This document shows, piece after piece, positions 5,437 through 34,556 of a stretch of 34,805 bases of DNA (position 1 is its first letter; the number at the start of each line of letters is the position of its first letter). The stretch comes from Treponema sp. (GTDB taxonomy: Bacteria > Spirochaetota > Spirochaetia > Treponematales > Breznakiellaceae): the NCBI GenBank assembly GCA_031283105.1, contig JAITCL010000028.1, positions 1 through 34,805 on the forward strand, written 5' to 3'. Below the pieces are notes generated by a model. That model ran no database searches. It was not told where the DNA came from and worked only from the letters and a program-made list of their open reading frames with translations. Both the position numbers and the translations under genes were made by a program.

Positions 5437-5493
5437 AACAGCAGAGACCAGCCGGAGGGGGCGCATTGTTTGCTCCCCTTTCCTTTTTCTTCC

Positions 5494-5516
5494 CTCTCCG
5501 TGTTCTCCGTGTCTCC
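5494..5516. repeat. CCACGGAG-type intergenic repeat (fragment)
   Basis: ctctccgtgttctccgtgtctcc, periodic TCCGTG. Confidence 0.7.
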
Positions 5517-5655
5517 CGCCGCGCACTCGGCTTGCTAAAGCAAGCCGGCATTACCGTACACGGCGGCCTTTACTGTGCGCGGTAACGTATAGCATTTATT
5601 TGGTCAACGCCCCTTAACGGGGCGCTGTTATTTGGTTACCGTGGTGAAAATTCTT
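5517..5655 (+). repeat. Multi-stem structured repeat element, copy 1
   Basis: CCGCGCAC(5519-5526)/GTGCGCGG(5575-5582); CGGCTTGC-taaa-GCAAGCCG (5528-5547); GGTAAC(5581)/GTTACC(5635-5640); CGCCCC-ttaac-GGGGCG (5608-5624). Inverted homolog at about 14124-14272. Confidence 0.8.
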
Positions 5656-5713
5656 CCCTGCTTTCACATCTCGCATTGCTCCCCGGTCATTGACCTGACG
5701 GGTCTTTCACGTT

Positions 5714-6157: not shown

Positions 6158-6332
6158 CACAAAGACACAAAGGTTAGAAGAGCACCAAGAAGAAAAAAAT
6201 GGGGTTGTTGTCCGTTAGCTTTTCGTAAGGCTCACGCTTGGATTTCGAACAACAATTCCCTCTTTTCCCCTCCGTGTTCTCCGTGTCCTCCGTGGTTAAA
6301 TTCTTCCCTCTTTTCCTCTTTGTGTCTTTGTG
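6158..6332. repeat. CACAAAG-type inverted repeat enclosing a CCACGGAG repeat
   Basis: CACAAAGACACAAAG (6158-6172) and its exact 15-bp reverse complement CTTTGTGTCTTTGTG (6318-6332); CTCCGTG repeats at about 6269-6300 lie inside. Confidence 0.8.
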
Positions 6333-14123: not shown

Positions 14124-14272
14124 AAAAGGGAAGAATTTTTAACCACGGTAACCGAGTAACAGCGCCGTGTTAAACGGCGTTGACCGAATAAACGCGACAC
14201 GTTACCGCGCACAATAAAGACCGCCGTTTACAATAATGCCGGCTTGCTTTAGCAAGCCGAGTGCGCGGCGGA
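14124..14272 (-). repeat. Multi-stem structured repeat element, copy 2
   Basis: Reverse complement closely matches 5517-5655; P4 stem is CGCCGT-ttaac-ACGGCG versus CGCCCC-ttaac-GGGGCG in copy 1. Confidence 0.8.
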
Positions 14273-14330
14273 GGACACGGAGTTTTGGTACCAAACCATT
14301 TCTTCCTCCGTGGTTATATTCTTCGTTTCG

Positions 14331-18706: not shown

Positions 18707-18957
18707 TGATCTACAAATGTGCAGAAATCCCAGCCAGAGGGGGCGCTACGGGCGAGCGGAAACGCTTGTGGAATCCGCCTACGGAGCCTCCCAGCACCTC
18801 CATTAATCATGCGAATCGTGATAGTACGAATAATTATGGTATGGAGGTGCTGGGCTTTTTCTGTCCTCACTTGTTACTGTTACCCGCTGGTCTCCTCCGG
18901 CGGGGAATTCCAAATGTTTCCGCTACCCGCCCACCCCCTCTGGCTGGTGTCTATTGT
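18707..18957. repeat. Second palindromic element, unrelated to the MITE-like family
   Basis: CCCAGCACCTCCAT (18790-18803) and exact inverted ATGGAGGTGCTGGG (18841-18854); outer arms CCAGCCAGAGGGGG... also inverted at both ends. Confidence 0.7.
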
Positions 18958-33900: not shown

Positions 33901-33998
33901 TGACGGTAGAGGGGAAGGCTTTCCCCTCTAACAAAAGCAGGACTTTTGCCTTTATGCGTTAATAACGCGGTATTCTGTAATTCTACCCCTGTCTTCTT

Positions 33999-34027
33999 CC
34001 TCCGTGTTCTCCGTGTCCTCCGTGGTG
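33999..34027. repeat. CCACGGAG-type intergenic repeat
   Basis: cctccgtgttctccgtgtcctccgtggt. Confidence 0.75.
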
Positions 34028-34455: not shown

Positions 34456-34489
34456 TATTGGTGGTCAGTCACCGCTGACCCCCTTTCCC

Positions 34490-34510
34490 CCTCCGTGTTC
34501 TCCGTGGTGA
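34490..34510. repeat. CCACGGAG-type intergenic repeat
   Basis: cctccgtgttctccgtggtga followed by aaattcttcctgctttctcactacgcat, as at 5641-5685. Confidence 0.7.
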
Positions 34511-34556
34511 AAATTCTTCCTGCTTTCTCACTACGCATGGCTCGCCGTACCGTAGT

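Follow-up and report, generated by a model that had tools for sequence, protein, structure and literature searches.

The window (the whole 34,805-nt stretch of Treponema sp. DNA analyzed here) carries two copies of a folded repeat of ~125 bases, which, as judged from its sequence, we consider likely to be a small non-coding, non-autonomous mobile DNA element whose site would be recognized by base pairing. Structure and family are both solid; mobility has good support, and guide-directed joining is plausible, with partial support. No published description of the repeat was found in the open-access literature; as far as sampled, the family is new and confined to a family of termite-gut spirochetes.

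Copy 1 lies on the forward strand at 5515–5640 (model positions 1–126), the inserted unit probably being 5518–5640 (GCCGCGC...GGTTACC), and copy 2 lies on the reverse strand at 14147–14272; the two share 87% identity over 150 nt (E 1.7e-47) and belong to a set of 44 BLAST hits in the window's genome. The initial annotation had placed two homologous copies here, and all of the motifs that it named were recovered: CCGCGCAC/GTGCGCGG around the hairpin CGGCTTGC-TAAA-GCAAGCCG, then GGTAAC/GTTACC, and a last hairpin that differs between the copies with its pairing kept (CGCCCC-TTAAC-GGGGCG in copy 1 vs. CGCCGT-TTAAC-ACGGCG in copy 2). The stem boundaries need one refinement: CCGCGCAC/GTGCGCGG and GGTAAC/GTTACC share one GG, and the stems are therefore better described as CGCGCAC/GTGCGCG (P1) and GTAAC/GTTAC (P3). 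The repeat unit of ~123–126 bp comprises four stems, with P1 around hairpin P2 and P3 around hairpin P4. In copy 1 (forward strand throughout), P1 pairs 5520–5526 (CGCGCAC) with 5575–5581 (GTGCGCG); in an alignment of 21 copies it surrounds P2 (loop TAAA; 5528–5547 in copy 1) and ~28 unpaired bases. P3 pairs a guide-like segment, GTAAC (5582–5586), with the complementary right end, GTTAC (5635–5639); in the same alignment it surrounds ~21 bases, P4 (loop TTRAC; 5608–5624 in copy 1) and ~10 bases.

Conservation of the fold was assessed in 21 full copies from the window's genome (alignment A1, built with MAFFT and blind to structure) and in 74 distinct rows from relatives in a cross-genus alignment fitted to the covariance model. 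In A1, 97.3% of cells are paired, vs. 26–43% with the partners slid by 1–3 columns; changes on both sides occur in 10 of the 26 pairs (6.3 ± 1.0 in shuffles) and affect 52 cells (17.5 when shuffled). Among the relatives, 90.7% of cells are paired (34–49% in slid controls), with double changes in 23 of 26 pairs and a covariation score of 0.525 vs. 0.154 for shuffled alignments. Tested in this way for stem-breaking substitutions, further copies keep their stems (97% in the genome, 91% across genera). Folding z-scores range from -2.5 to -3.75, as RNA and as DNA and on either strand. Selection for a folded single strand, as proposed in the initial annotation, is strongly supported; the choice between RNA and ssDNA was left open there, and a mobile repeat family was not visible from the window's two copies.

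The types of substitution bear on this choice. Across the relatives, P2 and P4 together show 238 double changes vs. 2 single wobble changes, a pattern unlike that of most RNA genes and more like that of DNA palindromes; for P1 and P3, the corresponding counts are 141 and 41. Mismatches in the hairpins P2 and P4 are more commonly A-C than G-U. In the long-range stems P1 and P3, G-U exceeds A-C by about 61 to 7 (11 vs. 1 in A1), which indicates that pairing takes place on the strand as read. We infer that the hairpins are kept as DNA palindromes and that long-range pairing occurs on the + strand of the element, which is compatible with RNA too. The two halves of P2 are mismatched in a few copies (L012, L017), which look like recombinants between P2 types.

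A genome-wide and cross-species covariance-model search, which had been put forward as a check on the two copies, gave 64 matches in the window's genome, with at least 25 near-full copies. Within the window's family it located the element in 85 of 201 genomes, and in 31 of the 58 genera; a 394-genome sample of the phylum gave no matches outside the family, under stricter filters that may miss weak cases. A broader model recovered 14–105 copies in nine relatives (105 in G032, 66 in G190, and 48 each in G017 and G189), 9 copies in a one-contig genome (G224), and zero in one genome from outside the family. An element-specific pattern scan of the collection retrieved only 'Treponema sp.' MAGs (Cyl330_bin39, Th196P3bin31, and Coa324_bin45), which we take to resemble the MAG series from higher termites. 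Judged from the relatives carrying the element, the window's genome is probably a termite-gut Treponema MAG; Breznakiellaceae is the family for most termite-gut spirochetes (PMC13067680). Searches of viral contigs gave one partial match to the element, in a putative viral contig (IMGVR_UViG_3300028327_000004; L247, 5154–5244), where it sits at the edge of the retrieved segment.

Three other repeat families contain nested copies of the element, and empty paralogues exist for the same sites, as seen when the sequences on either side of single copies were joined and compared with the retrieved loci. The empty-paralogue junctions (left/right of the insertion point) are CTCCGTGTTCTCC/GTGGTG, also CTCCGTGTTCTCC/GTGGTGAAAATTC (window copy 1, L011, and others); GTGACTGTCACC/ATAGGG, also GGTGACTGTCACC/ATAGGG (L017); and GTAGAATCC/GCCTACGG, also CGCTTGTAGAATCC/GCCTACGG (L027, L028, and L030). 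Window copy 1 is inserted in the first host family, along with ~70 bp of common upstream sequence: host-repeat sequence to its left (CCGGAGGGGGCGC...CTCCGTGTTCTCCGTGTCTCC) occupies 5445–5517 on the forward strand, with empty paralogues at L042, L038, and L046, and that to its right (GTGGTGAAAATTCTTCCCTGC...) occupies 5641–5700 on the same strand. Copies of the ACGCC-guide subfamily in G032 lie before GTGG of this same host repeat (L189, L197, and L199–L201). The filled/empty pairs have no uniform duplication; some classes carry flanking direct repeats of 4–7 nt. Head-to-tail arrays were also found, with a junction sequence common to the array members. Copies within one host repeat may in part represent a single insertion copied with its host. 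None of eight loci orthologous to the acyl-CoA dehydrogenase site carries the element; because gene order and neighbors differ between species, an orthologous empty site is not demonstrable.

Dispersed repeats other than the element were also noted. One, made of 12-bp units (CTCCGTGTTCTCCGTGTCCTCCGTGGTGAAAATTCTTC), has many copies in the genome and hosts the element in two genomes; in the window it occupies 5470–5516 and 5641–5660, 6261–6306, 14273–14310, 33985–34026, and 34484–34520. A third repeat family (CAGCCGGAGGGGGCGCTACGGGCGAGCGGAAACGCTTGTAGAATCCGCC...), which likewise hosts the element, is present at 18725–18950 of the window and in L028, L029, and L050. Conversely, a ~110-bp repeat (GGGTTTAATACCCCGCC...GGGGTATT) resides inside an element copy (L025, G000:C158, 547–656), with an apparent ~7-bp duplication (TTATTCG).

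P3 joins an internal segment of 4–5 nt to the right end of the element; at tRNA sites, the tRNA gene itself serves as the partner. Guide and right end change together, forming the classes GTAAC/GTTAC, GGAAC/GTTCC, GGGCG/CGCCC, and ACGCC/GGCGT. The right end is the reverse complement of the guide in 17 of 21 GTAAC copies, 18 of 23 GGAAC copies, and 16 of 19 GGGCG copies; in the ACGCC class the match extends to all five bases in 12 of 28 copies and to the first four (GGCG) in 27 of 28, and small guide classes match to varying degrees. A copy of the right end recurs to the left of the element in the GGAAC (14/23), GGGCG (11/19), GTAAC (2/21), and ACGCC (2/28) classes. The left flank shares longer words with its own right end than with the right ends of others, and this holds for single copies too (4.06 vs. 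3.39 ± 0.09; 0/1000); the direct repeat in the left flank is clear only at Leu sites and in the GGAAC and GGGCG classes, but not for GTAAC or ACGCC, and thus a uniform junction rule is not established.

In 18 of ~152 copies from relatives, the 3′ end runs up to or into the 5′ end of a tRNA gene on the same strand (Trp, Thr, Leu, Phe, Val, or Ser), compared with a chance estimate of ~0.03 such cases (~50 tRNA genes, ~2.8 Mb, ±10 nt). In the Leu genes, tRNA positions 5–8 read AAGT, GCGT, or GGGT and the matching internal segments read ACTT, ACGC, or ACCC; in Leu copies L096, L103, and L091, the first 6–7 tRNA bases recur to the left of the element. Complementarity between guide and tRNA received no more than moderate support in a coarse permutation test (19/2000). 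In L180, an array adjoins the 3′ end of tRNA-Asn on the opposite strand. The element also contributes to the ends of protein-coding frames: in four copies of G000, the GGTAACC end gives ...TGG TAA (Trp–stop) to a convergent ORF of 118–228 aa, and in three copies of G032 the stop of a convergent ORF is supplied a few codons further in. As a separate observation, five Trp, Thr, Phe, and Val loci (L053, L108, L086, L100, and L206) have an extra hairpin, and then CTAAAGCNGTTNTTC, upstream of the element, as if forming a longer composite leader.

The abutment of tRNA genes raises the alternative that the repeat is a duplicated structured ncRNA or an RNA leader (e.g., in tRNA precursors or at the 3′ ends of mRNAs), with the fold selected as RNA. 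Strong covariation, conserved unpaired segments, the excess of G-U over A-C in P1 and P3, and the 18 same-strand copies directly upstream of tRNA genes all accord with this reading, which we nevertheless consider unlikely. Most copies lie away from tRNAs, and in the window's genome no tested copy abuts one; moreover, orientation relative to genes is mixed, copies are nested in other repeats, and the near-exclusive double changes in the hairpins (238 vs. 2) speak against an RNA. No Rfam family matches the element at the gathering score; in the relatives, Rfam returned only tRNA, Flavo-1, and cobalamin hits, and the tRNA hits reach no further into the element than its right end.

For the mobile DNA element that we favor, a mover was sought. 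No autonomous element and no copy enclosing a gene was detected, the partial BLAST hits being truncations or nested insertions. Nor did the element show the hallmarks that were tested: a Y1 transposase for IS200/IS605, a GTAG palindrome and flanked RAYT for REP/RAYT, and core boxes with an integrase for attC. REP sequences are palindromes of 20–50 nt preceded by a GTAG-type tetranucleotide (PMC8266576). Like REP, BIME, and REPIN sequences, the element is a high-copy, intergenic, palindromic repeat that is frequent at gene ends, adjoins stop codons, and is lineage-restricted, and RAYT-like genes are present in the window's genome, where an element copy lies next to one of them. Mobilization of a REP/BIME-like repeat by a resident RAYT is, however, improbable: the palindrome on the flanks of that RAYT is a different one (GGTGACAGTCACC), and the element copy there is an insertion into it; no element was found near the other Y1_Tnp genes examined, and copy-rich genomes G190, G017, G030, G001, and G026 gave no Y1_Tnp hit (the MAGs being incomplete). 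The element is also several times longer (126 nt), has four stems including two hairpins, and in A1 shows no GTAG tetranucleotide at the foot of either hairpin. A RAYT/IS200 partner was rejected as not linked to the element: of the Y1 loci examined, a single one has an element close by, and that copy sits within the different palindrome. This palindromic repeat (GGTGACAGTCACC ends, CCCCTAT/ATAGGGG core) is probably the REP of the RAYT-like Y1 enzyme (176 aa) whose gene it flanks; it occurs in L026/L050 (G000:C87:2400–3300), L039, and L017, and one of these repeats holds a nested copy of the element.

An integron-like attC site or cassette array served by an integron-type tyrosine recombinase is likewise an improbable reading: the element resembles attC in its arrays, which run head-to-tail, and its folded single strand, and every tested genome has tyrosine recombinases that match the integron-integrase model with scores under its cut-off, but none of 16 genomes encodes an integrase above the TIGR02249 cut-off, the element lacks the core boxes R'' (RYYYAAC) and R' (GTTRRRY), its right ends (GTTACC, GTTCCC, CGCCCC, and GGCGTG) do not fit GTTRRRY, its arrays are without ORFs or cassettes, its copies are dispersed and nested, and two treponemes of termites, T. 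primitia and T. azotonutricium, are reported to have no integrons (PMC3607928). One of these recombinases, of ~405 aa (L233, 1117–2322, forward strand; L231, 1207–2430, reverse strand), also scores below the cut-off; it has an extra N-terminal region of ~125 aa and lies beside a PRPP-synthetase-like gene in the two genomes inspected closely. All 16 searched genomes encode related recombinases, which are also widespread in the phylum. The ~405-aa protein was rejected as the mover, as it is not tied to the element and is also encoded in genomes without an element match at the strict setting.

MITEs and the ERIC, RU, Correia, and BOX repeats are likewise short, non-coding, and dispersed, with folding potential. 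The element differs from them in its cross-genus covariation and its end/guide complementarity, and in having neither a uniform target duplication nor the terminal inverted repeats of a MITE of a DDE transposon, its ends (GCCGCGCACTC.. and ..GGTTACC) not being inverted repeats of each other. The closest parallel in mode of action may be the pairing of guide and cleavage site in IS200/IS605 elements, to which the working of the element would be comparable: like it, IS608 and ISDra2 lack terminal inverted repeats, carry their subterminal hairpins on a single strand, and contain a short internal segment pairing with end or target sequence, and in IS608 the guides are tetranucleotides, a change in which resets the target (PMC5934647). 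By contrast, the element has no tnpA or tnpB, copy-rich genomes gave no Y1 transposase hits, its guide lies ~21 nt from hairpin P4 rather than at the foot, and P1 has no counterpart in the published description (PMC5934647).

On the reading that we favor, the element would move as a folded single strand, with a putative trans-acting recombinase recognizing hairpins P2 and P4. The internal segment would act as a guide, pairing with the right-end/target strand and fixing the junction; a change of guide would change the landing site, which would explain the discrete guide classes. More speculatively, we suggest that termite-gut spirochetes may harbor diversified guide-bearing elements without genes of their own, in which a guide of 4–5 nt sets the junction, different classes colonize different sites, and a recombinase other than Y1/RAYT moves the folded single strands. 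If this tentative scheme is correct, the sites colonized by the guide classes would include tRNA 5′ ends, gene ends, and other repeats.

Small mobile repeats shape many bacterial genomes, and their movers and choice of sites are mostly unknown. The hundreds of natural copies described here, with varied guides and matching ends, offer a ready test of guide-directed insertion outside IS200/IS605. For the spirochetes that carry them, exact junctions at tRNA 5′ ends and element ends that serve as stop codons suggest that these repeats may spread with little harm.
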